IMG/VR virus record: IMGVR_UViG_3300008261_004038
Coordinates: 1-28,152 of that record
Length of the DNA stretch: 28,152 bases
Strand: one strand, 5' to 3'
From: a virus
Positions 1 through 26,866 of the stretch are shown in pieces; position 1 is the stretch's first letter; every line of letters begins with the position of its first letter. The notes below the pieces were generated by a model. The model made no database searches. It saw only the letters and a list, made by a program, of their open reading frames with translations, and had not been told where the DNA came from. Made by a program: the position numbers and the translations under genes.

Positions 1-501
1 TGAGTTCCCTCGAACAGCAGATGATGAGGTAGATGCTGCTACAATTTTACTACCATTCTCAAGTTCGAGAGAACCTTTATTCCAAGAACCAACACCTTGT
101 TGTAACCACTTAGGCAAGGTTTCATATGATAGTTGCAATCTTCCCAAAAGTTCTCTTGCGGTTTCTGCTTTGTTTGCAAGAATTGCAATTCTTATATTAT
201 CATTAAATAAAGCATAGTGAAGTAGATAGGAGACCACAGTTGTGGATTTACCTGTCTGACGAGGTAGTTTGGCAATATTAAAGCGATTATTGTGGAAGTT
301 TGAAATGAGTTCCTTCTGGAAATCATACATTTCAAAGGGAATCAAACCTTCATCAAGAGAAACAATCTTGACATAGTTCATTGCAAAGTAAACTGGGTCA
401 CTTTTGCATCTTAAGTATTCTTGAATTTGTTCTGATGTAAATTCAATATTGACATTTTCTGCCTTTAAGTTGGGATTCCCCTTATAATGTTTTTCAGTCA
501 T
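1..501 (-). CDS. gp17: gp17 terminase large subunit, N-terminal part (cut by window edge)
   Basis: This is the ATPase subunit of the DNA packaging motor of T4-like phages, which docks on the portal and pumps DNA into the prohead. Only the first 167 codons are inside the window; the rest, including the nuclease domain, lies beyond position 1. A Walker A-type loop RQTGKST is visible at about residues 81-87. It is followed by the T4-gp17-like stretches ILANK, WNKGSLEL and the AVRGNS motif at about residues 162-167. The ATG overlaps the stop of the upstream 59-aa gene (ATGA), which supports both the start and co-transcription. It is the last gene of the 13-14-15-16-17 series in the window. Identification is firm because of the motif order and the neighbours. 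Confidence 0.95.
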   Translation of the reverse strand, partial: MTEKHYKGNPNLKAENVNIEFTSEQIQEYLRCKSDPVYFAMNYVKIVSLDEGLIPFEMYDFQKELISNFHNNRFNIAKLPRQTGKSTTVVSYLLHYALFNDNIRIAILANKAETARELLGRLQLSYETLPKWLQQGVGSWNKGSLELENGSKIVAASTSSSAVRGNS

Positions 502-677
502 AAACTATTAAAATTCAAACCTGCTAATGTTTCCTGATATTTTAAGTGAAGTTTTACGTAAGATTTTGCGATATTTCTAAGGTCATCCACATCATCACAA
601 GCATCAATTTCTCTTGCGATTCTTTCATACTCAAAGTTCTTGTTTAGATTTTCGAGAACAATTTTATTTGGGTCCAT
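498..677 (-). CDS. small conserved phage protein between the 325-aa gene and gp17 (59 aa)
   Basis: A 59-residue reading frame starts at an ATG (MDPNKIVLEN) and ends at a TGA overlapping the gp17 start codon. The start is supported by GGAG six bases upstream, read on the minus strand, and by a 14-bp overlap with the 3' end of the preceding 325-aa gene. The protein is charged and probably helical (for example YERIAREIDACDDVDDLRN), with no membrane segment or recognised catalytic motif. Its tight coupling on both sides argues for a real gene expressed with the terminase genes. I do not recognise a function; a packaging or terminase accessory role is only suggested by position. Confidence 0.8.
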   Translation of the reverse strand: MDPNKIVLENLNKNFEYERIAREIDACDDVDDLRNIAKSYVKLHLKYQETLAGLNFNSL

Positions 678-1641
678 TTATGTCTCCAGTAAATAATAAA
701 GGTTTAGTTGGATCTTTCATCGATGGATTGAAAGATAAAACAATAGCACCTGGATATATCTTACATACTTCAAAAGTTACCTGTTCCTTGGAAGGTCTTG
801 TAAATTGCGGGAAGAACATTTGAATTCCCAGATGCTTGCCTCTCCAGTTTAGCAGTATACTATAAGTCGTGCCACGAGACTGTATCCTTGTATAGTTCTC
901 GGATACCGAACTTGACTTAAGTGGTTCTGGTTTGATGACATCAAAGAACTCATATTCAGTTGCTTTAAATTCTTCTCTCCAATTGGAATAATCATAAGAT
1001 TCTGATTTATTTCCCCAGTTCTTTGCACCAACTTTACGGCACTTAACTAAAGCACCAGATGCATATGCAGAAGGCCAAACTTTATAACGAGACTTTACCT
1101 TTGAGTAGCAAGCATCCTTTTCCTCTGTTGCAACCATCTTTGCTGCACCTTCCCTGTCGGGATTGGGATCTTGACGATTCTTGCGACGAAATGCACTCTC
1201 CTCTTCCTTATCGGAGAGTTCTGCCTTCATTTTACTGGAACCACATTTTGGTTTTGTGGTTTGTCCTGGTTGTTTGGCGCAGGGTTTTCCCGCATATTTA
1301 CCACCCAGTTGAACCCAACCAGGGGTGCCATCAGAAGCACGACTCTTAGTAAACCAGTCACGCAAAGAACTATCACCACTTTTCGATTCATTAACCTTTT
1401 CTGCCTTTTTTAATCTTGTATAATAATCTGGAAGTTCTTCTAAATGTTGAAGGGCAATCATTCTTGCCATTGATTTACTTCCTGTGTGCTCACTTTCAAC
1501 TTTAATTCCCATTTTCAATTGAGAATCTAGTTTGTCCATTGATATTTTATGCTTCTTCGCAATCTCCTCTGGGGACATATACTTTTTGATAGGTCCCTTT
1601 GGATCAGTTGCTTCTAGAAGAAATTGTGAAAAAGTTTTCAT
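664..1641 (-). CDS. putative internal head protein with capsid-targeting peptide, DUF5661- and DUF5872-like domains
   Basis: The protein has 325 aa. Residues 1-11 read MKTFSQFLLEA. This resembles the capsid-targeting N-terminus of T4 internal proteins (IPIII begins MKTYQEFIAEA) and contains an LLE|A site fitting the T4 prohead protease consensus (L/I)xE|(A/G). Residues about 22-82 look like DUF5661 (MSPEEIAKKH ... QLKMGIKVE.EHT ... PDYYTRLKKAE). Residues about 92-175 look like the Lys/Cys-containing DUF5872 (SLRDWFTKSR.SDGTPGWV). They are followed by CYSKVKSRYKVWPSAYASGA (178-197) and a less familiar domain from 215 to the end. The gene lies between gp16 and the 59-aa gene. Domain names are from memory. 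Packaging inside the head is inferred from the N-terminus; the biochemical role is unknown. Confidence 0.75.
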   Translation of the reverse strand: MKTFSQFLLEATDPKGPIKKYMSPEEIAKKHKISMDKLDSQLKMGIKVESEHTGSKSMARMIALQHLEELPDYYTRLKKAEKVNESKSGDSSLRDWFTKSRASDGTPGWVQLGGKYAGKPCAKQPGQTTKPKCGSSKMKAELSDKEEESAFRRKNRQDPNPDREGAAKMVATEEKDACYSKVKSRYKVWPSAYASGALVKCRKVGAKNWGNKSESYDYSNWREEFKATEYEFFDVIKPEPLKSSSVSENYTRIQSRGTTYSILLNWRGKHLGIQMFFPQFTRPSKEQVTFEVCKIYPGAIVLSFNPSMKDPTKPLLFTGDINGPK

Positions 1642-1665
1642 TCTTATGAATAGGTTCTCTAATTA

Positions 1666-2109
1666 TTATTTAGAATCTTCTGCTGATTGAAGATTTTGCT
1701 TAAGAAGTTTCTGTAATTCTGCAGTAGAACCAATAAACATCGTATTGTTGTTAGTCACACTCTTAGGACCAGATGAATCTTCTTCTTTTAATTTCTTCAT
1801 TTTTTGTTGAAGGTCCAATAACTTATCAGTTGTATCTGCTACATTTTTAATTAACTGACCTGCAACTTCAAATGCTCTGGGGGAATCTGATTGTTGTGCT
1901 ATCTCCAGAATTCCGTCTATTGCTTCTTGACCCTTTTCAATTAATGAATATAATTGTCCTCTAGTATAATCATAATCGTATTCACTTTCTTCTTCCCCTT
2001 TTTGGGGGGATTTTTTAACTATCTTAGATGTTTCGGAGACAATCTCCTTTGATATTGAATCTGCCTTAATATCCAAAGAATCATTTATTGCATCAAAATC
2101 ATTTTTCAT
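1666..2109 (-). CDS. gp16: gp16 terminase small subunit
   Basis: This 147-aa protein matches the T4 gp16 family, which forms a ring that regulates the large terminase and helps initiate packaging. The central region (about residues 44-105) carries the conserved helical hairpin seen in marine T4-like phages: YTRGQLYSLIEKGQEA, then RAFEVAGQLIKNVADTTDKL. The N-terminus is acidic and serine-rich, and the C-terminus (MFIGSTAELQKLLKQ) is a short helix that in this family likely contacts gp17. Its length is close to that of T4 gp16. The start overlaps the gp15 stop (ATGA). The stop codon lies inside TCTAAATA, a possible variant late promoter for the next gene. Confidence 0.92.
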   Translation of the reverse strand: MKNDFDAINDSLDIKADSISKEIVSETSKIVKKSPQKGEEESEYDYDYTRGQLYSLIEKGQEAIDGILEIAQQSDSPRAFEVAGQLIKNVADTTDKLLDLQQKMKKLKEEDSSGPKSVTNNNTMFIGSTAELQKLLKQNLQSAEDSK

Positions 2110-3152
2110 ATATCAATACCCTTTCTAGGACTATATACTTTTCCGTCACCAAAATCAAAATAATTTTCATCAAATCCAAAATTATCACCATACGGAATTA
2201 ATTCATTGTCCTGAGAATTAATGACGTTTAGTGTATCACCTTCTTCGTGTTCTTGTGCAGAAGTATTGTCCTGCCCTCTAAGAACTGTTAATCGATTTCC
2301 ATTAATATCTTTAATATACATAGATTCTTGATTTATCATAATATAAGTATTGGCAACAAGAGATGAAGAATCCGAAACATCAAATTCGGTAACTACACTA
2401 TTGACTTCTTCTGATAATACTGTTGCTGAATCATTATTATAATCTTTAAGTGCTCTAGGTTCAACAGTATATCTCAATTGTCTTGATGCATTTTTGGTTT
2501 CTGTATTTGTGTAGTAATCTACTTGAACCTTCTTAATTAAATTATCTGAAGAATTAGATATTGGGCCAAATAGTGATGTTTTAGCTGTAAAATTTAAAGT
2601 ATAAACTAAACTTCTTCTTGTAGAAAAATCACCTTCATAATCATCACTCATTGAAATTCCATCAAGAATTATTGGAATATCTCTTTTTTCTCCAATTGAA
2701 TTTACTAGGTCTATACTTAAATTGAAGTGTGGTTGAAAGAAGGGAAGAATTTGCTCAATAATTTGAAGCATATCATCCTGATACTTGCTTATAATACTGA
2801 GTTGAATTCCAATATTATAAGGTGCTGGCATATAAACTTTTACTGGACCAACACCAGGTCTATTTGCTTGAAATGTTTGTACTGTGGAAACTTTTCTGGT
2901 TGGATCATATTGTATAGTTGTCATTTCAAATGACATTCGTGGTAATGTAATCGCAACCTTTTTTCTTAGATCAGGTTTTTCATCAAGTCTTGCCAAGAAT
3001 TTTTGTACTGGTCCATATGCAATGGGAACCTTAATTAAACTAACATCATCACCATTTTCAGTTTCATGTTTTATGTGAATATTATTAAAAAGCGTACCAA
3101 AAGATATTATAGTCCTTCTAATAATTTCGTGATAATAATAAGTGCCAAGCAT
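2106..3152 (-). CDS. gp15: gp15 proximal tail sheath stabiliser / tail terminator, with C-terminal extension
   Basis: In T4, gp15 caps the tail tube and sheath and forms the interface to the neck. The first ~200 residues match that family: an N-terminal YYYHEIIRRTIISFGTLFNNI, then LPRMSFEM, then the hallmark YQDDMLQIIEQILPFFQPHF, followed by RRSLVYTLNF. The protein has 348 aa against 272 in T4. The excess is a C-terminal region (about residues 245-348) containing a beta-rich module with ESMYIKDINGNRLTVLRGQ, a kind found in other phage structural proteins, and an acidic Phe/Gly-rich tail. It overlaps the gp16 start by 4 bp, and gp14 lies 23 bp upstream. Confidence 0.93.
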   Translation of the reverse strand: MLGTYYYHEIIRRTIISFGTLFNNIHIKHETENGDDVSLIKVPIAYGPVQKFLARLDEKPDLRKKVAITLPRMSFEMTTIQYDPTRKVSTVQTFQANRPGVGPVKVYMPAPYNIGIQLSIISKYQDDMLQIIEQILPFFQPHFNLSIDLVNSIGEKRDIPIILDGISMSDDYEGDFSTRRSLVYTLNFTAKTSLFGPISNSSDNLIKKVQVDYYTNTETKNASRQLRYTVEPRALKDYNNDSATVLSEEVNSVVTEFDVSDSSSLVANTYIMINQESMYIKDINGNRLTVLRGQDNTSAQEHEEGDTLNVINSQDNELIPYGDNFGFDENYFDFGDGKVYSPRKGIDI

Positions 3153-3175
3153 TTTACGTAAGGTTTATTTACTAT

Positions 3176-4576
3176 TTAGAAAGTACCAAAAGGATTGCTT
3201 TCTGAAAAATCTATAATTGTATTTGCCTCTTCTTGAATTGATTTATTTTCAGCATAATTGTCATAGATATTATCCGACTCTATAGAAAGAATTTTATAAC
3301 TTGCTGCTGCCCCGACTATTGTTTCTCCTAAGGCAAAACTTCCATTGACGATTGCTACTTTTAGTATTCTTGTGTCGTAATTCCAATCTTTTACATATGC
3401 ACTTGTTCCTGTTGATACTCCTCTAACAACCTCATTAAATTCATAATCCCCAGTGGAAATTCCAATAGGAGAAGTTATTTGTATTGCAGGAGTTATTCCA
3501 TATCCAATACCAGCATTAGTAAATCTTACTGAAGAAATAGATCCAGAGGAATTTACACTTACTTCTGCCTTTGCAACATATGACTGTGGATAGTTGAATA
3601 TATTTGGAGGTGCAATAGTTACAATTGGAGCAGTAGAATATCCAACACCACCGGATACTATTTCTATAGGTCCCAATACACCTGGTTTTATTATTGCAGT
3701 TGCTATTCCATCAGATCCATTACTAGAATTTGATCGTATTGTAACCTTTGGTGGAATACTATATCCAATACCAGGATTTATAACCAAAATTTTACTTATA
3801 GAACCACGATCTAATACTGCTATTGCAGTCGCAGTAATTCCACCACCAACTGGACTACCAATATCAATTATTGGTGGAGATTTATATCCACTGCCACCAT
3901 TTAAAATATCAATTGAATTGACTGAATTTTCTGGGACTCCTTGTGCCAAGGAAGATGCAAGAACTGTCCTTAATACAGCAGAAGATGCTGCAGCACCAAC
4001 CATTTGAATTGTTGCGATATAACCAAAGTCTTTTACGTTTTCATCAACATCATCAATACCAGTATCAATAATTTCATCCTCATATTCAAAGAGTTCGCAT
4101 CTTAATTCGTAAGTATAAAGATTATTAAGTTGGTAATACGGTGTTTTTAGTTCAACATATTTTATTTCAAATAATGCATTATCTAGAGGTAAATATATTA
4201 AATCACCCTCTTCTGGACGATTTTTAAGTTTTACATTGGGATCTCTAAAAATTCCAAGCTTTGGAGTAATAAAATCTTCATACCTTTCTTTTGAGATTAT
4301 GAAAGTAATCTCATCAGTACTTCTTACTCCAAATTTTGAAAGAATATCACCATTTCCTCCATATCCAGAAAATGTTGAAATATATGCTTCCAATCTAAAA
4401 CTATCATCAAACTTTGAGACAATAATCTCTTTAATTATTTTTTTCTCATTTATAATTTTTCTTGGCATATAAAGAACATCTTGTCCATAGATGGACAACT
4501 GCTCATTAATTAAATCTTGAACGAGTCTTTGTTCACTTGGTGAACCTTGTAGAAAATAAGGATTTAATGGTGACAT
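3176..4576 (-). CDS. gp14: gp14 neck protein with large beta-repeat insertion
   Basis: In T4, gp14 joins gp13 and gp15 in the neck that seals the filled head and accepts the tail. Residues 1-190 carry the family N-terminus (NPYFLQGSPSEQRLVQDLI, then YGQDVLYMPR, SGYGGNGDILSKFG, PEEGDLIYLPL, YELRCELFEYEDE). The C-terminus (EEANTIIDFSESNPFGTF) is also family-like. Between them, at about residues 220-435, is extra sequence: four copies of a GG.GY..PP.(V/I).I motif at about 227, 268, 308 and 355, then a beta module (VRGVSTGTSAYVKDWNYDTRILKV). The result is 466 aa against 256 in T4. The insertion likely forms external Ig- or jelly-roll-like decoration on the neck. The gene starts one base after the gp13 reading frame ends. 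Confidence 0.92.
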   Translation of the reverse strand: MSPLNPYFLQGSPSEQRLVQDLINEQLSIYGQDVLYMPRKIINEKKIIKEIIVSKFDDSFRLEAYISTFSGYGGNGDILSKFGVRSTDEITFIISKERYEDFITPKLGIFRDPNVKLKNRPEEGDLIYLPLDNALFEIKYVELKTPYYQLNNLYTYELRCELFEYEDEIIDTGIDDVDENVKDFGYIATIQMVGAAASSAVLRTVLASSLAQGVPENSVNSIDILNGGSGYKSPPIIDIGSPVGGGITATAIAVLDRGSISKILVINPGIGYSIPPKVTIRSNSSNGSDGIATAIIKPGVLGPIEIVSGGVGYSTAPIVTIAPPNIFNYPQSYVAKAEVSVNSSGSISSVRFTNAGIGYGITPAIQITSPIGISTGDYEFNEVVRGVSTGTSAYVKDWNYDTRILKVAIVNGSFALGETIVGAAASYKILSIESDNIYDNYAENKSIQEEANTIIDFSESNPFGTF

Positions 4577-4577
4577 A

Positions 4578-5452
4578 TCAACCTATCATATCTAGAGGTG
4601 GCATTTCATACTCTGATTTGAGTTTTTGTTCTATATCTTCCAACTCTCTAATTGCATCTTCATATAACTGTCTTCCATTTAAAGTAATTCCTCCAGGAAG
4701 TTGGACCCCATTAAATTTAATCATATTCTGTCCCCATTGCCTTTTGATAAGTGCAGTAAGATATCTCTTCAACCAAAAGTCATTATAAATTTTTGGAAAG
4801 TCTGCATAAGTGCAGTAAGATATCTCTTCAACCAAAAGTCATTATAAATTTTTGGAAAGTCTGCGGGATTTACAATTCTATAACAATCTAAAACTATATA
4901 AGTATCTGGATCTACTTGCTTCCAATCAATATCCAAATATAAACGATGTTGTTTTTTATTAAACCTTAGTTGAACATCTGGAGTTAAAATTCTACTAATA
5001 TCTTCAAGGTGAGTTTTAACCATCGCATAGTTCAAAAGATCTAATGCACCATAATAATATAAATCATTTAAGAAAATTTGATACTTGATATTGAATAATC
5101 CACTTGAAATAGTACTAGAATCAACTTTAAATACACTATTCACACCAATAATTGTATCTGGTAACTTTAAAAAATTTGTTGATTCTTGCCAAGTTACTGT
5201 ATTGATTCCAACTGTAGAATTTCCTATAGTTGTCTCTGTTCCACTACGAATTATATCTTTTTCTCCTGGTTGCAATTGATGCTTTAAAAATACTCTCTCA
5301 ATTCCATCAAAGTGTCTTTCGTGGAAATATTGAATAGCATCATCCATCAGATTATCAATCTGATCATCATCTACGTTTATTTCTAAAACTGGCTTTCCTA
5401 GTTGCTTGAGGCAATACTCTTTCAACTCTGCTCTAGAAGATGGTTGTGCCAT
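4578..5452 (-). pseudogene. gp13: gp13 neck protein gene, broken by a 59-bp tandem duplication
   Basis: The 5' frame (5452-4769, MAQPSSRAELKEYCLKQLG, DDDQIDNLMDDAIQYFHERHFDGI, LYLDIDWKQVDPD) matches T4-like gp13, which binds the portal after packaging. After NPADFPKIYNDFWLKRYLTAL the sequence repeats itself by an exact 59-bp tandem copy. Because 59 is not a multiple of three, the frame shifts and stops after MQTFQKFIMTFG. The true C-terminus (IKRQWGQNMIKFNGVQLPGG to PPLDMIG) follows in another frame, ending at 4578. Removing one copy gives a continuous 271-aa protein of normal size. gp13 should be essential, so an assembly error is at least as likely as a real mutation. The 85-aa downstream frame (4835-4578) should not be annotated as a separate gene. 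Confidence 0.92.
4747..4864. repeat. perfect 59-bp tandem duplication inside gp13
   Basis: Bases 4747-4805 and 4806-4864 are identical over all 59 positions, and the match ends on both sides exactly at the unit length. This is a simple head-to-tail duplication. It duplicates the codons for roughly ADFPKIYNDFWLKRYLTAL and causes a frameshift in gp13. Confidence 0.97.
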
Positions 5453-5478
5453 TTATAAAGACTACTACTATATAAAAA

Positions 5479-5486
5479 TATTTATA
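5479..5486 (-). promoter_or_regulatory. T4-type late promoter TATAAATA upstream of gp13
   Basis: An exact TATAAATA, the late promoter octamer recognised in T4-like phages by gp55-programmed RNA polymerase, lies on the minus strand with 26 bases between it and the gp13 ATG. It would drive the neck and terminase block. The same intergenic region carries a plus-strand promoter for the epimerase gene. Confidence 0.75.
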
Positions 5487-5508
5487 AGTATACCAAAAAC
5501 CAAAAAAG

Positions 5509-5517
5509 TGGTATAAT
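5509..5517 (+). promoter_or_regulatory. sigma70-type extended -10 promoter for the hldD-like gene
   Basis: The plus strand reads TGG TATAAT at 5509-5517. This is an extended -10 element (TGn-TATAAT) placed 18 bases before the ATG at 5536. A -35 box at the expected spacing is weak. This suggests that the only plus-strand gene in the window is read by the unmodified host polymerase, early or in the middle period, unlike its late neighbours. Confidence 0.6.
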
Positions 5518-5535
5518 ACACAATAAACAATTTTT

Positions 5536-6336
5536 ATGATAATATTAACAGGAAGTCGGGGATTTATTGGTAAAAATTTTCTGAAGAAAATAGATGATCC
5601 AATAATAGAAGTAGAAAAAGATGATGCCTATAATTTTATTAGTAACTTTGATAAATGGAATGAAGTATCATTAATACTCCATCAAGGTGCAATTTCTAGC
5701 ACTACTGAAAAAGACATAAAAACATTACATCATGCTAATGTTGCATTTAGTTTATTTTTATTTGAAAAGGCAATCCAATATGGAATTCCAGTAAAATATG
5801 CATCCTCAGCATCAGTATATGGAAACCAAACAAAAGACTTAAAAGTAATCAATCCATTAAATTATTATGCAATTACAAAACTGCAAATAGATTATTTTGT
5901 TCAAGATAATTTAGATAAGTTTTCAAGTATTCAAGGTTTTAGATATTTTAATGTATATGGAAAAGGTGAGGATCACAAAGGTGATCAAGCAAGTCCTGTA
6001 TCAAAATTTACAAAGCAAATTCGTGAAACAGGTAAATTAAAATTATTTAAAGGATCAGATAAATTTTTAAGAGACTTTATTTGTGTAGATGATATTGTTG
6101 ATGTTGTTTTAAATAACAACTCACCATCGGGAATCTATGATTTGGGTACTGGCAATCCAATTTCATTTCAAGAAGTTGCTGAATTAGTTGCAGAAAAAGA
6201 AAAAGGGGAAATCGAATATATCGACTTCCCCGAACATCTTAAAGGTAAATATCAAGATTATACTTGTGCTGATATGAAATGGATTGGTAATTATAAATTT
6301 AAATCAGTTAAAGAGTATCTCCATCAACAACTCTAA
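5536..6336 (+). CDS. hldD: ADP-L-glycero-D-manno-heptose-6-epimerase-like SDR enzyme
   Basis: This extended short-chain dehydrogenase of 266 aa resembles HldD/RfaD, which converts ADP-D-glycero- to ADP-L-glycero-D-manno-heptose for LPS inner core. The nucleotide-binding loop GSRGFIG is at residues 6-12, SSASVYGN at 90-97, and the catalytic Y111-x3-K115 pair follows. The HldD-like stretch RYFNVYGKGEDHKGDQAS is at 136-153. It is shorter than E. coli HldD (310 aa), and the difference appears spread out rather than a clean truncation. It is the only plus-strand gene. It is divergent from gp13 and overlaps the 3' end of the cupin gene by 29 bp in tail-to-tail orientation. No clear Shine-Dalgarno sequence precedes the ATG. 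Context with heptose kinase and adenylyltransferase genes supports the assignment. Confidence 0.88.
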   Translation: MIILTGSRGFIGKNFLKKIDDPIIEVEKDDAYNFISNFDKWNEVSLILHQGAISSTTEKDIKTLHHANVAFSLFLFEKAIQYGIPVKYASSASVYGNQTKDLKVINPLNYYAITKLQIDYFVQDNLDKFSSIQGFRYFNVYGKGEDHKGDQASPVSKFTKQIRETGKLKLFKGSDKFLRDFICVDDIVDVVLNNNSPSGIYDLGTGNPISFQEVAELVAEKEKGEIEYIDFPEHLKGKYQDYTCADMKWIGNYKFKSVKEYLHQQL

Positions 6337-7716: not shown

Positions 7717-8077
7717 CTATTCTATCAAAAAACTTTAATTCTTTTGCATACTGAGATCCTATGACTGGTTTATCTTTCCAGTCAGATCCTACCACCATTA
7801 TATCAGGTTCGTAGTATTTAACAAGTTCTTCTAGTTCTTCGTCAGATCCAAAAGTTCTTACTTCATCAATCGTATGAATGTTTGCGAGCATAAATGCACG
7901 ATCCCAAAGAGAGTTAATTGGTCTTGTTGGACCCTTCTTTTCACTAACTCTCTCATCAGAATCAATCGCAACAATCAAATGATTACCGAAAGACTTTGCA
8001 TATTCAAATAACAAAAGATGTCCTGTATGCAGAACATCAAATGTACCATTAACAAATACTTTTTTCATTTGGGACAT
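7667..8077 (-). CDS. hldC: D-glycero-beta-D-manno-heptose-1-phosphate adenylyltransferase
   Basis: This 136-aa nucleotidyltransferase has GTFDVLHTGH at residues 11-20, with the HxGH catalytic motif, and the C-terminal signature YSSTKTI. Overall it resembles the HldE C-terminal domain: RPINSLWDRAFMLANI, then DIMVVGSDWKDK. It would make ADP-D-glycero-beta-D-manno-heptose. Related cytidylyltransferases such as TagD share the fold, so the substrate rests on the neighbouring kinase and epimerase genes. Two in-frame starts are possible, 8077 (MSQMKK) and 8068 (MKK); they overlap the carbamoyltransferase gene by 29 or 20 bp. Confidence 0.87.
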   Translation of the reverse strand: MSQMKKVFVNGTFDVLHTGHLLLFEYAKSFGNHLIVAIDSDERVSEKKGPTRPINSLWDRAFMLANIHTIDEVRTFGSDEELEELVKYYEPDIMVVGSDWKDKPVIGSQYAKELKFFDRIDGYSSTKTIQSIINRG

Positions 8078-9719
8078 AAATCAATTTTTGTATTTCTGGA
8101 AGATACATATATTCTATTTCACTATTTCTTAGTGTATTGAATGCATCATCTATTGTTTCAACAATAGTATCACCCGCAAGATTAAATGATGTGTTGAATA
8201 AAATAGGAACCCCAGTCAGTCTATAGAACTCTTCTATTAACTCATAATAGTTTGAATTTTGTTCTTTTTTCAAAGTTTGTATCCTACAGGTCCCATCAAC
8301 ATGAGTAATAGCAGGAATTAATTCTCTTTTTTCTTCTAAAACATTAACAGCATACATCATGTAAGGACTTTCTTCCAGTCTGTCCATATCAAACCATTCT
8401 TTTGCATGTTCCCATAATACTGTTCCTGCAAATGGTCTCCACCATTCTCTTTTCTTTATTCTATTGACTATTTCTTTACCATTTTTTGCTCTGGGATCAA
8501 AAAGAATTGAACGATTTCCTAATGCTCTAGGACCTGCCTCAGATTTTCCTTGACATAAAGATATTATATTTTGTTTTACTAAAAGAGAGGCAATTTCTTT
8601 TGTGGAAATACTTTTTTCTGATTCATTTTTGTTTAATTTATAATTATATTTTATTTTCTGACCAAGATATAAAGATTTTAAAGAACAGTCCTTATTCGAG
8701 TCTATTTTGTATTGATATTTTGCGGAACCCATAGAAATTCCATCATCACCACATAAAGGATCTACAAATAAATTAATATCTGATGGGAGTCTTTTTAAAA
8801 TATTAAAATTCGCAACACAATTCAATGCACAACCACCACCTAAAACTATATTTTTTTCCCCAGTAAGATCAATAGATTTTCTAATTAAATCAAATATATA
8901 ATCTTCAAATTCTTTTTGTAATTTATAAGAAAGATTAGATAATTTTAAAAATCTATCTTCTTCATTTTTTGAGTGGAAAATATAATCATATTCTTTAAAT
9001 TTTGCATGATTATTTTCATAGAAAACTACAGTTTGATTTGTACTTCTTATTTGAAATAATTCTGGATTACCTCCAGTTTTTAATATCATTGGTTTTATTC
9101 TTGGGTCATCTTGTCCATAAGATGAAAGACCCATAGTTTTCCCACAATCATGATTTGAAAATCCCAAATATTCGGTAACTGCTGAGTATACCATTCCAAC
9201 ACCAATTTTTGGATTTTTATTTACATAATTTGGTGTATTAAAAGGAATCATATCTTTTTCGGAACCTACAATACTTTTATAAACGCACATAATTTTATTT
9301 GGACCTAAAGCATGGAAAATACTTTCGTTCTCTTTTCCATACTCTAAGTCCGATCCTGCACCATCAATAATTACGCAAGCAGCAGTTTTGAATTGTGAGT
9401 TATTAAAAGCAGAGGATGCATGTGCTAAATGATGCAGTTCCGAAAAATTCGAGATAAGTTTAATGTTTATGCCTGCATATTCAAATAATTTAATATACAC
9501 CGAAAAATCATATTGTTTATTATACAAATAAGAATAAACTAAAATGTCTATCTCTGTAGTATATTTTTTAACGACATCAATTAATTTAATTGCTTCACAG
9601 CAGTGTTTTTCATGAGTCAATCTTTCTTCTTGTAAATGAAGGATAACCTCATTATCCTTCATTAAAGTTATTGATGCATCATGTGTCCGATTCAATCCTA
9701 AAATCCACATAATAATCAT
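8049..9719 (-). CDS. NodU/CmcH-family O-carbamoyltransferase (second copy)
   Basis: This 556-aa enzyme belongs to the family that transfers a carbamoyl group from carbamoyl phosphate, via carbamoyl-adenylate, to a sugar hydroxyl. The Kae1-like N-terminal domain starts ILGLNRTHDAS and has the metal-binding HxxxH in HHLAHAS, then DGAGS. It continues to GKTMGLSSYG and GGGCALNCVAN. The C-terminal YrdC-like domain has EAGPRALGNRSILFDPRA near residue 395 and FNTSFNLAGD. It is a paralogue of the 567-aa gene two positions upstream. The frame opens with MIIMWILG; the ATG at 9710 (MWILG) is an equally good start. A run of 11 A lies upstream on the coding strand and there is no clear Shine-Dalgarno sequence. 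The acceptor sugar is unknown, but a heptose or another LPS sugar is suggested by the operon. Confidence 0.9.
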   Translation of the reverse strand: MIIMWILGLNRTHDASITLMKDNEVILHLQEERLTHEKHCCEAIKLIDVVKKYTTEIDILVYSYLYNKQYDFSVYIKLFEYAGINIKLISNFSELHHLAHASSAFNNSQFKTAACVIIDGAGSDLEYGKENESIFHALGPNKIMCVYKSIVGSEKDMIPFNTPNYVNKNPKIGVGMVYSAVTEYLGFSNHDCGKTMGLSSYGQDDPRIKPMILKTGGNPELFQIRSTNQTVVFYENNHAKFKEYDYIFHSKNEEDRFLKLSNLSYKLQKEFEDYIFDLIRKSIDLTGEKNIVLGGGCALNCVANFNILKRLPSDINLFVDPLCGDDGISMGSAKYQYKIDSNKDCSLKSLYLGQKIKYNYKLNKNESEKSISTKEIASLLVKQNIISLCQGKSEAGPRALGNRSILFDPRAKNGKEIVNRIKKREWWRPFAGTVLWEHAKEWFDMDRLEESPYMMYAVNVLEEKRELIPAITHVDGTCRIQTLKKEQNSNYYELIEEFYRLTGVPILFNTSFNLAGDTIVETIDDAFNTLRNSEIEYMYLPEIQKLIYVPNEKSIC

Positions 9720-9760: not shown

Positions 9761-10288
9761 TTAATAATTTTTCCAGCACAAAAAATTAAAGTTTATAACA
9801 ACTCTAATTTTTTCATCTGTGCAAGTTGCGCCAGTATGTCGCATATGTGTTGGAAAAATTACCATACGATTTTCTACACTATTAATTTTTGTGCCATCTT
9901 CAAATAAAGTATATCCATTATTTGTATTGACATACAGAATTGCTGTTCTCAAATTTTGACAATTGGAACCAACAACATCAATATGCATACCATGTTCTAT
10001 ATGAGTTGTTGTTCTTGGTAAAAGATTACCTTTAACGTTTATAAGAGTTAAAGGATTTAATTTTTGAAAGATTATTGCCATTTCATTGAAGAATGGACTA
10101 ACTGGAGTATTGTGATGATAAAATATATGGACAAATTGAAACTCATTAATATCGTTGTTATTTTCATTTACAACAAAATCACTATAATTCCAAGAAAAAT
10201 TTGAATTATTAGTCAACAACATTCCTTTAAGATAATTAAAGTAATCACCTGGAAGGTAATTATCATAAATTTCAATATCAGTATTCAT
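9761..10288 (-). CDS. 2-oxoglutarate/Fe(II)-dependent oxygenase
   Basis: This 175-aa protein has the iron-binding facial triad H102-x-D104 (GMHIDV) and H151 (RHTG), with R162 placed as the 2-oxoglutarate-binding arginine. This arrangement is typical of prolyl-4-hydroxylase-like oxygenases common in marine T4-like phages. It sits between two carbamoyltransferase genes: its start overlaps the first by 11 bp, and the second follows 41 bp downstream. That placement suggests hydroxylation of a sugar or of a glycan-linked substrate, perhaps creating a hydroxyl for carbamoylation. The substrate cannot be read from the sequence. Confidence 0.85.
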   Translation of the reverse strand: MNTDIEIYDNYLPGDYFNYLKGMLLTNNSNFSWNYSDFVVNENNNDINEFQFVHIFYHHNTPVSPFFNEMAIIFQKLNPLTLINVKGNLLPRTTTHIEHGMHIDVVGSNCQNLRTAILYVNTNNGYTLFEDGTKINSVENRMVIFPTHMRHTGATCTDEKIRVVINFNFLCWKNY

Positions 10289-11981
10289 TATTATTTGGTA
10301 CTTTTACTAATTTTTGAATTTCTGGAAGATACATGTATTCAATATCACTTGACAATAATGTATTCAATGCATCAACAATCGTTTCAACTAAAGGATCGCC
10401 ACCAAGATTAAATGAAGTGTTAAAAAGAATTGGAACACCACTCAAGTTTTCAAAAGAACTAATCAGATTATAGTAGTGCTCATTCTGCTCTTTGGTAACT
10501 GTTTGAATACGGCAAGTTCCATCAACGTGAATAACTGATGGAATTTTTTCTTCTACTCCAGGAAGACAATCAACAGCATACATCATATGTGGAGATTCCT
10601 CACGACCAGCAAGATCAAACCATTCATTTACCTTTTCTTTAAGAATTGAACAAGCAAATGGACGGAAAAATTCACGACGTTTTACTTTATTAACTATATC
10701 TTTTCCATCAATAATTGTTGGATCAAAAAGAATTGAACGATTCCCTAATGCTCTAGGACCACCCTCAGATCTTCCTTGGAAAATGGTAACAATATTACCA
10801 TCACGGATTAGTTTTGCAACTTCTTCATATGAAGTATTGGAAACTTCATAATCTTCAATGTAATCGGAATACGATTCTGGATCATATTTTGGTCCATAAT
10901 AAATCGATGTTTGTGGTTTGAATGGAGATTCCATTTTAGAAACCTCCGCATGGACATATTTTGCTCCTCCAATAGATGTTCCACCATCATGAGAAATTGG
11001 TTCACAATAAATGTTTAGATCTGGGAAGTTCTTCAAATACTTATAATTTGCAACACAGTTTAACCCATATCCACCACATACGACGATATTCTTTTCCCCA
11101 GTTTCTTCATGCGCCTTTTTGATTAATTCTATCATTCTAGTTTCTGTTTCTTTTTGAACTAGAAATGCTAGATCTTTTTGGATTTGTGTATATTCTCCTT
11201 TGTTATGCTTTAGTACATCGTTTGCAAAAACTTCATATCTATCAACATTAATTTTTGCACCATTTGGATAATTTGGAATGAATACTTCACGATTTGCCCA
11301 TCCATTTCTAAAAAGTTCTGGAAGATTTGGATTTTCTTTTCCATATGGAGAAAGTCCCATTGTTTTACCAGCATCTATAGAAGAAAATCCACAATACTCA
11401 GTTACTGCCTCATATGTTTTAGTCAATCCTGGGTATTCTGTTAAAAGAACTTTTCCTTCCTCATCTAATTTAATAATACCAACACTTTCTTTAGTTCCCA
11501 AATGCTTATAAACTGCATCAAAATCTAATGGATATTTTGCTTTAAATATAGATTCAAATTCATAAATTACACCAGAACAAGCATCAGTTTGCAAGAAACT
11601 TCCTGCTCCATCAGCAATTACACATGCTGCTGTTTCAAATCCAGAATTTAAAAACGCACAAGCTGCGTGCATCTCATGATGTCTTGTATCAATAAAATGA
11701 GTTTGATATGTAAAAGTTTTTCTGGATAATTTTCGAATCCATCCATGATACAAATCTTCACCCGTCCAATCCAATTCTGGTCCGTGACGGTGTGTATGGC
11801 ATATTACAAGGTGGTCTATATGGTCAACGTATTCAAAAACTTTTAATAGTCCCAGTAACGGAGATCCATCATGCTTCCATCTAGATAATCTTTCTTCCTC
11901 AATGTAAAAGATTACTTCACCATCAATCATTAATGTGGTACTCGCATTGTGACCACGAGCACAAGAAACAATAATACTCAT
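10278..11981 (-). CDS. NodU/CmcH-family O-carbamoyltransferase (first copy)
   Basis: This is a 567-aa paralogue of the 556-aa gene. The N-terminal domain has ARGHNASTTLMIDGEV, an HxxxH metal site (RHHEMHA), and ADGAGS. The middle carries GKTMGLSPYG and CGGYGLNCVANYKYL. The C-terminal domain has the signature EGGPRALGNRSILFD near residue 405 and ends in FNTSFNLGGDPLVET and IEYMYLPEIQKL, nearly the same ending as the other copy. The start is supported by GAGG a few bases upstream, which overlaps the stop of the glycosyltransferase gene. Two non-identical copies in one operon suggest two acceptor positions or two acceptor sugars. Confidence 0.92.
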   Translation of the reverse strand: MSIIVSCARGHNASTTLMIDGEVIFYIEEERLSRWKHDGSPLLGLLKVFEYVDHIDHLVICHTHRHGPELDWTGEDLYHGWIRKLSRKTFTYQTHFIDTRHHEMHAACAFLNSGFETAACVIADGAGSFLQTDACSGVIYEFESIFKAKYPLDFDAVYKHLGTKESVGIIKLDEEGKVLLTEYPGLTKTYEAVTEYCGFSSIDAGKTMGLSPYGKENPNLPELFRNGWANREVFIPNYPNGAKINVDRYEVFANDVLKHNKGEYTQIQKDLAFLVQKETETRMIELIKKAHEETGEKNIVVCGGYGLNCVANYKYLKNFPDLNIYCEPISHDGGTSIGGAKYVHAEVSKMESPFKPQTSIYYGPKYDPESYSDYIEDYEVSNTSYEEVAKLIRDGNIVTIFQGRSEGGPRALGNRSILFDPTIIDGKDIVNKVKRREFFRPFACSILKEKVNEWFDLAGREESPHMMYAVDCLPGVEEKIPSVIHVDGTCRIQTVTKEQNEHYYNLISSFENLSGVPILFNTSFNLGGDPLVETIVDALNTLLSSDIEYMYLPEIQKLVKVPNNNEY

Positions 11982-13151: not shown

Positions 13152-14240
13152 TTACTTATAGCAAACGCAAACCATTCCAAATCTTCCTGCACAATCCCCA
13201 TATATACCAGTTGCTCCACCACAAGACATAGATGGAGATGCCCCTGCACCTGGAGTTCGGTTATATCCACAACAAGCTTGGTATGCCGCACCACAGCAAA
13301 TTACACAAAGATATTGGGTACACTGTGATGTATTAACAAAACCATATACAGGTGGATGACAAACACAAGTAAATATATTTCCTGTACCTGCACCAGAAGA
13401 TGCAGCAGAAAACATACCTTTTATTCCATAAACTGATCCGACTGGAGAGGATCCAAAATAAAGGGATCCCGGAGTATATGGTAATAAGCAACAAACACCA
13501 ACACCAGTTGGAGACCAACAAGCAAATGAACCCTGTCCACAAAGTGCAAAACCGCAACAAACACCAGTACTAGAACCTACATTACATTTTGAACCCCAAT
13601 AGCAAACAGAACCGGCAGTTCTACCATTACATACCATCCAATTTCCTAATTCTCCAGTACCACCATCTGCACATACATTGCACAATCCAGGACCTTGAAC
13701 GTATGATTTATCACCATGCGGTCTTTGTGATTGATATGTGCAATACGCACATGTTAATGGGGCACAACCACTATGAATAACATATTGTGATCCTGCCGTT
13801 ACTGGAATAATAACAGATACAAATGCACCAGTACTTCCAAATGGAGACAAACTACAGCAATTTCCTCCTCCCCCAGCACCACTTCCTGCACCCCAAATCT
13901 GGAATCTAGCACAAGTAACACCTGCAGGGACAGTCCAAGTGCAATCTCTACCCTGGGACATATATTGTCCGGAGGCACCATCAGCACCACATACAGTGAA
14001 ACCTCCATTCCATCCAGATCCAGCTGGAATGCAAGACCAAAGTGAAGTTAAAGCTGGGTTTGCTAATAGTTGTGGTTCAATGCAATTCGTCCAACAAAGA
14101 TAATTTGCATCAAATATTGCAGCAGCTGGTGCTAACGCACTGGTTTCCGCACTTTTTGTAGTTACACAAGAACTTCTTTGCGATACTACAGTATTTAAAT
14201 AAGATTTTGCGTTAAACGCACTATACCTTAGAACATCCAT
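13152..14240 (-). CDS. Gly/Cys-rich adhesin-like virion protein A
   Basis: The protein has 362 aa with about 35 cysteines (near 10%), many as CC or CxC pairs, and is rich in Gly and Ser. A central motif TWTVPAGVTCARFQIWGAG followed by GAGGGG resembles glycine-rich domains at phage tail-fibre tips. The C-terminus GMVCVCYK is shared with its paralogue at 14926-16032. No signal peptide is present, so this is probably a structural protein rather than a secreted one. Receptor binding or a cross-linked or metal-bound fibre tip is inferred from composition and from neighbouring fibre genes. The terminal Tyr-Lys-stop codons form TATAAGTA on the coding strand, near the late promoter consensus. A terminator follows. 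Confidence 0.75.
   Translation of the reverse strand: MDVLRYSAFNAKSYLNTVVSQRSSCVTTKSAETSALAPAAAIFDANYLCWTNCIEPQLLANPALTSLWSCIPAGSGWNGGFTVCGADGASGQYMSQGRDCTWTVPAGVTCARFQIWGAGSGAGGGGNCCSLSPFGSTGAFVSVIIPVTAGSQYVIHSGCAPLTCAYCTYQSQRPHGDKSYVQGPGLCNVCADGGTGELGNWMVCNGRTAGSVCYWGSKCNVGSSTGVCCGFALCGQGSFACWSPTGVGVCCLLPYTPGSLYFGSSPVGSVYGIKGMFSAASSGAGTGNIFTCVCHPPVYGFVNTSQCTQYLCVICCGAAYQACCGYNRTPGAGASPSMSCGGATGIYGDCAGRFGMVCVCYK
13884..13940. repeat. 57-bp exact repeat shared with 15703-15759 (copy 1)
   Basis: These bases are identical to 15703-15759 across 57 positions. They encode TWTVPAGVTCARFQIWGAG in the two Cys-rich paralogues, whose flanking sequence has diverged much more. This is consistent with recent gene conversion or a recombination patch. 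Confidence 0.93.
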
Positions 14241-14925: not shown

Positions 14926-16032
14926 TTATTTATAACAAACACATACCATTCCCATTCTGCCAGCATCACCACATATTGATAGGCACCCACCAGCAATTTG
15001 CATGGCATAACCACCAGCACCAGGAATTAACATAGATGGAGTTACTGAACCAAAAGTACCATTAGCTGAACAATAATTACCACCGCAAGAAGTATTTCCA
15101 TTGAAACCAAATACACATTGAGAACTAGATTCAAATCCGTAAATAGGAGGATGTTTCATATAACCACACATGCAATAGATATTTAAGCATACTTCTGGGT
15201 ATGCTCCCCTAATACCATATACAGTTCCTCCCGTAGCACTTCCATATGGAAGTGCCGAAGAATGCTCAGCTTGATACATTGTATGTGGATTTGACATGAA
15301 TCCAGCACCACAAGTTAAGCATCCATTATAATTGAATGGTGTAGAATATTGTGAATTGCAAAAACTACTTCCAGTTCCACATAAGCAATAACCAAGATAA
15401 CCAGTATAACCTGGATCTGGAATGGGTGATGTCTGTCTATAATATGTTAATCTATCAGTACTTTGGGTACAGAGACTCCCAATTCCCCCAGAAGCACAAA
15501 AATTAGTTAGATTACAACCCTGAACAAATGATTGACAACCATTTTGATTCCCTGTTGTATTTTGTTGTGAATAACAGCAGTTAGCACATCCACCACAAAG
15601 AGTATAAGTCCAACCTGCACTAACAGGAATAATTACTGAAGCATATGCACCAGATCCACCAAATGGGGCACCACCACAGCATCCTGCTGCACCACTTTGT
15701 GATCCTGCACCCCAAATCTGGAATCTAGCACAAGTAACACCTGCAGGGACAGTCCAAGTACATGAAGAACCACACCTAAAATATCCAGAAGTATCACAAA
15801 CTTTGAATCCAGCAGTCCATCCAGTACCAGTTTGTATATAAGACCACAATTCTGGTCTTATCATTCTATCCGATATTATTGTTGTGGGAACAAATGCACT
15901 AATACAAGATTGATACGTAGAACACTGAGTATTTAATGTATCAATACAAGTCTGTAAATTTGCAGCACATGTCCTAACAGGTTGCACTTCAGATAAATTT
16001 AGTGAGTTATATGCTAAAACATCTATGGTCAT
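14926..16032 (-). CDS. Gly/Cys-rich adhesin-like virion protein B
   Basis: This 368-aa paralogue of the 13152-14240 product has about 33 cysteines. Shared landmarks are the central TWTVPAGVTCARFQIWGAG, a PFG.(S/T)GA(F/Y).SVIIPV stretch, VYGI(R/K)G, HPP(I/V)YGF, and the C-terminus GMVCVCYK. The N-terminal ~60 residues differ from paralogue A apart from spaced cysteines (C22, C29, C38, C44) in a predicted helix. It is probably a virion surface or fibre-tip protein. It starts six bases after the 90-aa gene and is probably co-transcribed from the promoter near 16680. Confidence 0.75.
   Translation of the reverse strand: MTIDVLAYNSLNLSEVQPVRTCAANLQTCIDTLNTQCSTYQSCISAFVPTTIISDRMIRPELWSYIQTGTGWTAGFKVCDTSGYFRCGSSCTWTVPAGVTCARFQIWGAGSQSGAAGCCGGAPFGGSGAYASVIIPVSAGWTYTLCGGCANCCYSQQNTTGNQNGCQSFVQGCNLTNFCASGGIGSLCTQSTDRLTYYRQTSPIPDPGYTGYLGYCLCGTGSSFCNSQYSTPFNYNGCLTCGAGFMSNPHTMYQAEHSSALPYGSATGGTVYGIRGAYPEVCLNIYCMCGYMKHPPIYGFESSSQCVFGFNGNTSCGGNYCSANGTFGSVTPSMLIPGAGGYAMQIAGGCLSICGDAGRMGMVCVCYK
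14927..14934 (-). promoter_or_regulatory. T4-type late promoter TATAAATA overlapping the stop of Cys-rich protein B
   Basis: An exact TATAAATA lies on the minus strand with 22 bases to the ATG of the 219-aa gene. The octamer supplies the last codons of the upstream gene (TAT AAA TAA, Tyr-Lys-stop), so promoter and coding end overlap. Confidence 0.72.
15703..15759. repeat. 57-bp exact repeat shared with 13884-13940 (copy 2)
   Basis: This is the partner of the copy in Cys-rich protein A. The flanking bases on both sides (15702 and 15760) already differ from copy 1. Confidence 0.93.
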
Positions 16033-22396: not shown

Positions 22397-25300
22397 TTAA
22401 ATTATAAATACCCTGACTCTCTTAGGTGGAACATAATTTATCTTTCTATTCTCAGAGAATCCTTCAATGTTTGTATTTGTGAATCCATTATAGTTAGATC
22501 TAGCAAAAGACTCAAGTGTGTTTCCAAATATTCTGAATGCTTTTTGTGATACTTTATAATCATAAAATACAGATTTTGCTGTACTTGTAAATACTCCAAT
22601 TGATCCAGATCCACGGAATGCTTCTGTATTTCTTTCTCCCGAAGATCCAATAAAGTTGAATAATGTAGTTGTAACCTTTGGTATAAAGGATACTTTCGTT
22701 GTGGAAAGAAGATCTGTGACCAATCTTCCACTTCCAGTATATAGACCTTCTCCGAATGATTCTTTAGCAGAACCATTAATTCTGAATAGATTTGTTTCTC
22801 CTCTGGTATTTTTGGAGGCAGAATATGATGTTCCAACAAAAGAGAATACGGAACCAGATCCAATATAAGATTCTGTATTCTTTTCAACTGCAGATCCAGA
22901 GATCTTAAATAATTCTCTAGTATCATCTGGACTAAATGCTGCAGATTCTGTTCCACTTGAGAATCCGAATAGAGAACCTTTTCCTTTATATACAGATGGT
23001 TTTGCAGTAAATCCAGATCCAGAAACTTTAATTTGTACTGGTTTTTCTGTAGTTCTGATGGAACTAGATTCATCAGAAGATGCAATATATGTTTTATTAT
23101 TCTGGTCTGGACGACCAGAACCTTCAGATACTTTAAGTTTTCCTTCACCAATATAAATTGGTTGAGTTCTAGCACTTCCTGTACCAGTAAACTTAAATAG
23201 TGCAGTATTTTCTGGTGGATTAGATCCTTTGGATTCTGCTGCAGATATAAACGCAAATACTGATCCAGATCCAACAAAACTTTCTGTGTTTCTTTCCTTA
23301 GCAGAACCTCTAACTCTAATAACAAATGTATCAAGTTTGTATGCGTTTGAGAGGTATTCGGAAGCACTTCCAAATCCAAATAGATTTCCTCTTCCAATAT
23401 AATTGTAATTTCTATTTTCAGTGGAAGAAGAAGTTATTGAAATAGAACCAGAACCTGGATATCTTGGTCTGATTAAGATCAGTGATTCTACATTAATTCT
23501 TTCTAGACCAATACCAACATAAGATTCTGAATTTCTATTAATAGAAGAACCAGTAAACTTAAATAGTGCAGTATTTTCTGGTGGATTTGCACCAAAGGAT
23601 TCTACTTTACTTACAAATGTAAATAGTGATCCAGATCCAATTTCTGTTGCTGGAGTAGTTGATTCTGCAGCAGAACCACGAATAAAATAAGATCCACTAC
23701 CAATATGAATTGGTTTGAGACGGATGACTGCTCTTCCTCTAACTTTAAGGGTTCCGAAACCAGTCTCACGGAATTGGAAGTAAAGACCAACTTTACCACT
23801 AAGTCTAATTGCTTGGGGTTTGCCGACCTCAGTAATTCCAGTACTTTCAAATGCAGCAACAAGTCTAGTTTTGTCGTCTGCATCCAATATCTGTGATGCT
23901 TGACGAACTGTAACTGTTCCAGAACCAATCTCGGTAGTAGGAGTAATTGATTCTGTAGCAGCACCAGAAATTCTGAAGAGACCAGAAACAGGTGGTTTTG
24001 GACCAAATGCTTCTGTTGTACTTGAGAATCCAAATAGTGATCCAGAACCAACATAAGATTCTGTATTCTTAAGATTGCTATATCCTCCAGAGAAACTTGT
24101 TAATCCAAATGGTCTTAATCCACGACCAGTAATGAGTCCATAATCTTGTGTTTCTTGACCATATAATTCATTGTCAAGAATAGATCCATAATTTTCCGAC
24201 GAACAATTTGGAGATAGGATGGATCCAATTTCTACATTCGCATAAGAACTAATAGGTGTATTAGCGTAATCACCTATAGTTGCTATACACTCAGTTATGG
24301 AACCATAATCTAGACCCTCATAATCAACTACAGAGGATTCATTATAAGAAGCAGTTGTTCTTTCTGCCTTACTGCCGAAACCAAATGCTCTACCTGTTCC
24401 TACATAGGATTCTGTGTTTTTCTCTACAGCAGAACTAAACAGTTTAAATAAACCAGTTGAAGTTGGTGAATATGTATTTGTTTCTGATTTACTTACAAAT
24501 ATGAATAGAGAACCACTACCAACATAATCTTCTGTATTCTTCTCTATAACTGCACTAGAGAATTTTGTTAATCCAAATGGTCTTAATCCACGACCAGTAA
24601 TGAGTCCATAATCTTGTGTTTCTTGACCATATAATTCATTGTCAAGAATAGATCCATAATCTTCTGTAGAAGATCCTGGTGCTAATATAGAACCAATTTC
24701 AAAATTACTATAGTTTCCTATTTGGTCATTAGCATAATCACCTATAGTTGCTACTCCATCAATTATAGAACCATAATCTAGACCCTCATAATCAACTATA
24801 GATGATAGGTTATAACTTACTGCTGTTCTTTCTGCCTTACTTCCAAATCCAAAGAGTGATCCAGTACCAACGTATGATTCTGTATTCTTAAGATCACTAT
24901 ATGCTCCACGAATCTTAAGAACACCACGACCAACATGACTTGGTAATACAAATATATTGGCAGTTCCAAAGTCAAATAGTTTACCACTACCAACATAATC
25001 TTCTGTATTCTTCTCTATAACTGCACTAGAGAATTTTGTTAATCCAAATGGTCTTAATCCACGACCAGTAATGAGTCCATAATCATCACGTTCTGAAGGT
25101 AAGTTTGGATCATCAAGAATAGATCCATAATCTTCTGTAGAAGATCCTGGAGATAGCAGATCACTTATTAAAGTATCACTATAAGTGTTTATAGGTGTAT
25201 TAGCATAATCACCTATAGTTGCTGTTCCATCAGTAATTAAACCGTAATCCAGACCATCATAGTCAACTGTTGAAGAGAGATTATAACTTACTGCTGTTCT

Positions 25301-26866
25301 CTCTGCCTTGCTGCCAAATCCAAATGCTCTACCTGTTCCTACATAGGATTCAGTATTCTTGAGATCACTATATGCTCCACGAATCTTAAGAACACCTTTA
25401 CCATAATGAATTGGTAGTACAAATATCTTAGCATCACCGAAGTTAAATAACTTACCCGAACCAACATAATCTTCGGTATTCTTTTCTATAACCGAACTAG
25501 AGAATGAAGTCAATCCAAATGGTCTTAATCCACGACCAGTAATGAGACCATAATCATCACGTTCCTCTGGTAAATTTGGATCATCAAGGATTGAACCATA
25601 ATCTTCTATTGATGATCCTGGAGATAGCAGATCACCAATTTCTGTATCTGCATAGGTACTAATTGGTGTATTAGCATAATCACCTATAGTTGATGTTCCA
25701 TCAGTAATTAAACCGTAATCCAGACCATCATAGTCAACTGTTGAAGAAAGATTATAACTTACTGCAGTCTTTTCTGCCTTACTACCGAACCCAAATACTC
25801 TTCCTGTTCCTACATAAGATTCCGTATTCTTGAGATCACTATATGCTCCACGAATCTTAAGAACACCTTTACCATAATGTATTGGTAATACAAATATCTT
25901 AGCATTTCCAAATCCAAATGCCTTTCCTATTCCTACATAATTCTCGGTGTTCTTCTCTATTAATGAACTAGAGAATCTGGTTAATCCAAATGGTCTTAAT
26001 CCACGACCAGTAATGAGACCATAATCATCACGTTCTTCTGGTAAATTTGGATCATCAAGGATTGAACCATAATCTTCTATTGATGATCCTGGAGATAATA
26101 AATCACTTATTGAAGTATCACTATAAGTGTTTATAGGTGTATTGGCATAGTCACCTATAGTTGCTGTTCCATCGGTTATGGATGCATAATCTAAACTCTC
26201 ATAAGAAACGACAGAGGAGTTGTTGTATGATGCAACAACTCTCTCTGCCTTACTTCCAAATCCAAATGCTCTGCCTTCTGCTACATAGGATTCCGTATTC
26301 TTTTCTGATGATATTCCATTACTGTAAGATAAAATACCGTAACCAATATATGAAGAATTGATATAGTAATTTGATTTTCCTTGAAATAGAAATACTGTTC
26401 CTTGTATTTCTGATACTCTTGCAATAGAATATTTTGTTGCCGATATAACTTTACCTACTCTTCCATTTGCTGGTGTATTATCATCAACAATAATTCCATA
26501 AGAATCAAAAGATGTTGGAGTATCTAATATACTGCCATAGTCATCTATTGAAGAACCTGGTGATAGAAGGTTTTCAATTTCTACGTTTGCATATTCTTGT
26601 ATAGTTGAATTTGCATAATCACTAATTACTGCAATTCCATCAAAAAGTAGTCCATAGTCTTCCGATAGAGTGTAGAGAGTGGAAAACTCGTTATAAGAAA
26701 ATGAAAATCTTTGTTGAGAAAAACTAGTTTTTGAATTTAATGAAAATAAATTATTCTGACTAACAACATCAAATAAAGCAGAGCTGGAGAAATTACCAAT
26801 TTCTGTGGTTTGAAAAGAAATTAGTTGTGGTGAAATTGTCCCTGTTTTATATGAGTAAACTGCCAT
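22397..26866 (-). CDS. giant modular repeat virion protein (1489 aa)
   Basis: The first ~290 residues include units such as EDYGLLFDGIAVISDYANS and PGSSIDDYGSILD. They are followed by five near-identical repeats of 156-157 aa. Each repeat contains NTE(S/D)YVG.G.(A/L)FGFG, DYANTPI, LLSPGSSIEDYGSILD, DDYGLITGRGLRPFGLT and IFVLPIHYGKGVLKIRGA. GRGLRPFGLT occurs near residues 292, 449, 606, 763 and 919. The C-terminal third is made of shorter units, mostly alternating (N)TESYVGSGS.F.F and ..P..(Y/H).G.G.L..(R)G. It has few charged runs, no cysteine-rich region and no signal peptide. It resembles large cyanophage structural proteins, presumably long fibre or tail-surface proteins. No catalytic motif was seen. 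Confidence 0.8.
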   Translation of the reverse strand: MAVYSYKTGTISPQLISFQTTEIGNFSSSALFDVVSQNNLFSLNSKTSFSQQRFSFSYNEFSTLYTLSEDYGLLFDGIAVISDYANSTIQEYANVEIENLLSPGSSIDDYGSILDTPTSFDSYGIIVDDNTPANGRVGKVISATKYSIARVSEIQGTVFLFQGKSNYYINSSYIGYGILSYSNGISSEKNTESYVAEGRAFGFGSKAERVVASYNNSSVVSYESLDYASITDGTATIGDYANTPINTYSDTSISDLLSPGSSIEDYGSILDDPNLPEERDDYGLITGRGLRPFGLTRFSSSLIEKNTENYVGIGKAFGFGNAKIFVLPIHYGKGVLKIRGAYSDLKNTESYVGTGRVFGFGSKAEKTAVSYNLSSTVDYDGLDYGLITDGTSTIGDYANTPISTYADTEIGDLLSPGSSIEDYGSILDDPNLPEERDDYGLITGRGLRPFGLTSFSSSVIEKNTEDYVGSGKLFNFGDAKIFVLPIHYGKGVLKIRGAYSDLKNTESYVGTGRAFGFGSKAERTAVSYNLSSTVDYDGLDYGLITDGTATIGDYANTPINTYSDTLISDLLSPGSSTEDYGSILDDPNLPSERDDYGLITGRGLRPFGLTKFSSAVIEKNTEDYVGSGKLFDFGTANIFVLPSHVGRGVLKIRGAYSDLKNTESYVGTGSLFGFGSKAERTAVSYNLSSIVDYEGLDYGSIIDGVATIGDYANDQIGNYSNFEIGSILAPGSSTEDYGSILDNELYGQETQDYGLITGRGLRPFGLTKFSSAVIEKNTEDYVGSGSLFIFVSKSETNTYSPTSTGLFKLFSSAVEKNTESYVGTGRAFGFGSKAERTTASYNESSVVDYEGLDYGSITECIATIGDYANTPISSYANVEIGSILSPNCSSENYGSILDNELYGQETQDYGLITGRGLRPFGLTSFSGGYSNLKNTESYVGSGSLFGFSSTTEAFGPKPPVSGLFRISGAATESITPTTEIGSGTVTVRQASQILDADDKTRLVAAFESTGITEVGKPQAIRLSGKVGLYFQFRETGFGTLKVRGRAVIRLKPIHIGSGSYFIRGSAAESTTPATEIGSGSLFTFVSKVESFGANPPENTALFKFTGSSINRNSESYVGIGLERINVESLILIRPRYPGSGSISITSSSTENRNYNYIGRGNLFGFGSASEYLSNAYKLDTFVIRVRGSAKERNTESFVGSGSVFAFISAAESKGSNPPENTALFKFTGTGSARTQPIYIGEGKLKVSEGSGRPDQNNKTYIASSDESSSIRTTEKPVQIKVSGSGFTAKPSVYKGKGSLFGFSSGTESAAFSPDDTRELFKISGSAVEKNTESYIGSGSVFSFVGTSYSASKNTRGETNLFRINGSAKESFGEGLYTGSGRLVTDLLSTTKVSFIPKVTTTLFNFIGSSGERNTEAFRGSGSIGVFTSTAKSVFYDYKVSQKAFRIFGNTLESFARSNYNGFTNTNIEGFSENRKINYVPPKRVRVFII
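24105..26460. repeat. five long in-frame tandem repeats, period 468-471 bp
   Basis: The marker CCAAATGGTCTTAATCC-type sequence starts at 24105, 24573, 25044, 25515 and 25986, giving spacings of 468, 471, 471 and 471 bp. All are multiples of three. Copies share long stretches of identical DNA, so repeat number may vary and short-read assembly could collapse or expand it. Confidence 0.93.

Follow-up and report, generated by a model that had tools for sequence, protein, structure and literature searches.

The gene for the neck protein gp13 in the window (the whole 28,152-nucleotide IMG/VR virus contig analysed here, from an uncultured cyanobacterial phage) is split by an exact 59-bp tandem repeat, and we consider the second copy of this unit to be an artefact of metagenome assembly, with a probability of about 0.78. 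The repeat is true of the record but is probably not a feature of the phage. The nearest isolates are T4-like myoviruses of Synechococcus and Prochlorococcus, at ∼65-70% DNA identity. The elements of the interrupted gene are as follows.

4747-4805, no strand assigned: 59-bp unit, lower-coordinate copy (second in the gp13 reading direction), identical to 4806-4864.
4806-4864, no strand assigned: 59-bp unit, higher-coordinate copy (first in the gp13 reading direction), identical to 4747-4805.
4769-5452, minus strand: 5′ part of the gp13-type neck gene (head-tail adaptor Ad2), ∼215 native residues plus a 12-residue out-of-frame tail; phrog_211, E 6.8e-32; 93% identity with intact relatives.
4578-4835, minus strand: 3′ frame of gp13, ∼10 out-of-frame residues plus 75 native C-terminal residues; phrog_211, E 1.8e-14; 94.7-98.7% identity with the C-terminus of the closest intact relatives.

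The two units lie head to tail and agree at 59 of 59 bases, with TRF and a second repeat search returning the same coordinates, so the duplication proposed from the sequence alone stands as described. Scripted comparison at an offset of 59 gave a run of matches exactly 59 long, with zero extension into either flank and no microhomology. An exact repeat of this kind is far beyond chance, and the pair is the sole exact tandem repeat of period 25-300 within the window. Copies without a single mutation between them and without flanking homology are what a duplication made during assembly should look like, because an untrimmed overlap gives such a pattern.

On the minus strand the repeat divides one gp13 gene into a frame of 227 codons and a second frame of 85 codons with a TTG start, and joining the flanks by script with one 59-bp copy gives a single frame of 271 residues. 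Both results agree with the sequence-only reading, which had reported the two fragments and the continuous protein left after excision of one copy. The shorter frame starts ahead of the unique 3′ part of the gene, its first 10 residues being an out-of-frame translation of copy 1. The two frames overlap over 4769-4835. As written, the record therefore holds no one gp13 frame that carries the C-terminal helix, the adaptor loop and the portal arm together.

The assignment to gp13, also made in that reading, was confirmed by the PHROG 211 (head-tail adaptor Ad2) profile, which matches both halves, and by a profile of the relatives that matches T4 gp13 structures (PDB 9mkb, 9lu4) at both ends, residues 195-258 falling on T4 residues 234-297. 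The window differs from T4 gp13 in that its frame breaks past residue 215 of 271, at about T4 residue 254. Genomic position is in keeping with the family, since the split gene lies directly ahead of three genes of the expected types.

3176-4576, minus strand: gp14-type neck gene (head closure Hc2), intact, downstream of gp13; phrog_460, E 4.6e-130.
2106-3152: gp15-type gene, placed after the gp14-type gene.
1666-2109: small-terminase-type gene, placed after the gp15-type gene.

The gp14-type protein, at 466 aa, is far longer than T4 gp14, and over its C-terminal half it matches families of repetitive fibre and virion proteins.

The requirement for gp13 in T4, stated in the earlier reading, is documented by 10am13am infections, in which DNA-full heads accumulate and no neck is formed (PMC3039672). 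By homology, the segment lost from the main frame would hold the gp14-binding loop, the channel helix and the portal arm of T4 gp13. A truncated product should thus not work and a fixed lesion should be lethal, making it unlikely as the consensus of a population. Selection on the gene points the same way. Against the closest relatives (dS ∼0.8-1.1), dN/dS ranged from 0.04 to 0.06 in the 5′ part and from 0.005 to 0.010 in the 3′ part, the lost 3′ part being the most constrained portion of gp13, and the constraint on gp13 was at least equal to that on gp14 and gp15. Such low ratios on both parts indicate that gp13 either is still functional or ceased to be so only very recently. The title claim of the sequence-only reading, that a real mutation destroys gp13, consequently finds no support, given strong purifying selection on both halves and a repeat that is carried by no gathered relative.

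To place the repeat among relatives we gathered 80 related loci with the 5′ half and more with the neighbouring genes, all from IMG/VR. In 199 of the 202 loci holding both halves of gp13, the two lie in one frame; the remaining three are the window and a pair of overlapping loci from a single contig (L091/L160). Searches of IMG/VR with the junction 27-mer and with a 30-mer of the 59-bp unit found no other record. Because the unit 30-mer is in no other IMG/VR record, there is no independent record of the same strain for comparison, and the absence of the repeat from independent records is an absence from related phages. Over positions 1-6300 of the window, aligned with the three closest relatives, the 59-bp repeat is the only frame-breaking difference; other length differences are multiples of three, one compensating alignment pair, or intergenic. 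An apparently split gp13 in isolate S-SRM01, where several features lie under the match, was rejected, this isolate having one intact 843-bp gene before gp14.

The other broken gp13 gene has a different character. Contig L091 (IMGVR_UViG_3300001274_000005) is from a related phage, and its gp13 frame is broken elsewhere, by clustered indels of 1, 4, 1 and 3 bases spread over several genes, without the tandem repeat seen in the window. A near-identical contig from another sample, L082, has gp13 intact; the two share 99.84% identity but differ by four gaps, of which three, within 1.2 kb, have lengths that break the frame. This shows that isolated frame-breaking errors do occur in this collection. 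The frame-breaking gaps of L091 (8914-10080 of that contig) fall in or beside an epimerase-type gene, gp13 and gp14, in a stretch that appears poorly resolved. The break looks like a local sequence or assembly error, with no biology shared with the window.

When related contigs amounting to 2.87 Mb (1.64 M distinct 31-mers) were surveyed, just two further exact tandem repeats came to light, of 126 bp in contig L123 and 45 bp in contig L251. Both are in-frame, lie inside repetitive proteins and have matches that extend past one unit, which is the signature of real repeats, unlike the 59-bp pair.

The edges of the repeat lie at two third-codon positions of the gene.

4746, no strand assigned: base bordering the repeat, third position of an Ile codon; differs in 77% of 103 relatives.
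4865, no strand assigned: base bordering the repeat, third position of a Pro codon; differs in 95% of 103 relatives.

Among site pairs 60 apart in gp13, 2 of 749 are as variable across the 103 relatives, counting the observed pair itself; the number rises to 11 of 749 when the five closest relatives are used. When only wobble pairs were ranked by summed variability, the corresponding fractions were 2/251 and 15/251. This test was devised post hoc and takes divergence between relatives as a proxy for polymorphism within the population; read in that way, edges at highly variable wobble sites would fit contigs that end where strains diverge, as supportive evidence only. A chimera of two distant strains was rejected, identity being equal on either side of the junction (87.1/87.2% with L083, 87.0/89.0% with L158 and 86.9/87.9% with L082); a join between close strains is conceivable.

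These observations suggest how the record may have arisen. Two contigs, or two graph paths, of one phage population would have shared a terminal 59-bp stretch, its limits probably set by strain differences at 4746 and 4865, both third-codon bases, and an end-to-end join made without trimming the overlap would then have written the unit twice. The natural phage would hold one copy and a normal 271-aa gp13. In this account the joining step is inferred, as is polymorphism between strains at both edges in the sampled population. A graph-assembly overlap error had been offered as an alternative in the sequence-only reading; it is now the best-supported explanation, on the strength of the exact unit, the lack of flanking homology, uniqueness among relatives and the wobble-site edges. 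The odd length of the unit, like that of a de Bruijn k-mer overlap, is a weak further point in its favour. The default k values of MEGAHIT include 59, to which we give no weight as the window's assembler may be a different one.

Some points weigh against an assembly artefact. The related contigs (2.87 Mb) hold zero other frame-breaking exact tandem repeats, which makes untrimmed joins at most an infrequent error in this collection, and current assemblers usually trim overlaps or insert N. A literature search for such an untrimmed-overlap error in metagenomes found no paper. False duplications are known from vertebrate genome assemblies and resemble the present case in that unmerged parts lead to sequence written twice and a gene misread (PMC9516828). 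Those cases concern large eukaryotic genomes, in which haplotypes or overlaps were assembled twice, whereas in the window a single 59-bp unit is repeated within a short viral contig from a metagenome.

As the main rival, the repeat could be real, a tandem duplication that arose very recently in a defective phage genome and was caught at low coverage as a minority variant or from a single molecule. Such a genome would persist, if at all, through co-infection with intact phage, and recombination between the two 59-bp copies would tend to remove one of them. Tandem duplication is a commonplace kind of mutation, the sequence is present in the record, and identical copies suit a very recent event. 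We nevertheless regard this explanation as unlikely: the unit ends lack the microhomology that slippage duplications usually show, a contig consensus should mirror the majority, the lost segment spans the gp14-binding loop, channel helix and portal arm, and the edges fall on highly variable wobble sites.

An old pseudogene, with a fixed duplication in a phage that does without gp13 or has replaced it, is very improbable. The broken frame is all that speaks for it; the dN/dS values, on which we rejected it, are joined by the identity of the 59-bp copies, the intact neighbouring neck genes and the near-universal presence of an intact gp13 among relatives.

A tolerated real duplication with gp13 still being made, by -1 frameshifting, by bypassing to the twin codon 59 nt downstream or as two polypeptides after restart at a TTG overlapping the first frame's TGA, appears extremely improbable. 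The frames do overlap at 4769-4835, but a search of this overlap for an in-phase slippery heptamer found none, the sole candidate, AAATTTA, being out of phase in both copies (at 4851 and 4792), and a programmed -1 frameshift was rejected for want of such a site. The RNA fold is somewhat more stable than shuffles (z -2.0), yet this score is caused by the repeat itself and was discounted as a recoding signal. Random 59-bp units give a 5-bp hairpin stem at the junction in 7-12% of cases (56 of 816 within gp13 and 498 of 4005 over the window as a whole), a frequency that makes the hairpin uninformative about either hairpin-driven duplication or bypass. Twin codons 59 nt apart are present by construction, and the strong constraint on the 3′ half is equally explained by a gene intact until now.

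In phage T4, gene 60 is read by translational bypassing of ∼50 nt between two frames of one gene. The window shares with it a stretch of similar length separating two frames, but has an exact duplication in place of a unique gap and lacks a demonstrated hairpin or nascent-peptide signal. Take-off and landing sites conserved on either side of a structured gap, as in gene 60, were not found, the arrangement being in no relative. The sequence-only reading allowed that the lesion might be bypassed by recombination or slippage; nothing points to bypass or recoding. Barely conceivable is a duplication both real and common in the population, with full-length gp13 made by ribosome hopping to the twin codon 59 nt on, or with a reinitiated split gp13 assembling into the neck.

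More generally, an isolated exact repeat can be enough to make an essential virion gene of an uncultured phage seem lost, and such repeats could prompt mistaken reports of pseudogenes, split genes or recoding. The combination of an exact unit, no flanking homology, variable wobble edges and uniqueness could be used to screen viral contig collections for errors.

Elsewhere in the window, a 60-bp block is 98% identical between 13884-13943 and 15703-15762, in neighbouring paralogues that both match phrog_35878 (362 and 368 aa); the match is confined to the block, possibly reflecting recent gene conversion. The gene between two carbamoyltransferase paralogues (phrog_1601; 8049-9719 and 10278-11981) matches PHROG 274, and identity to relatives is lower across this region. 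Finally, a 1489-aa ORF at 22397-26866 (phrog_11522) contains about five repeats of 468-471 bp at 64-80% identity and encodes a large repetitive structural or fibre-like protein.
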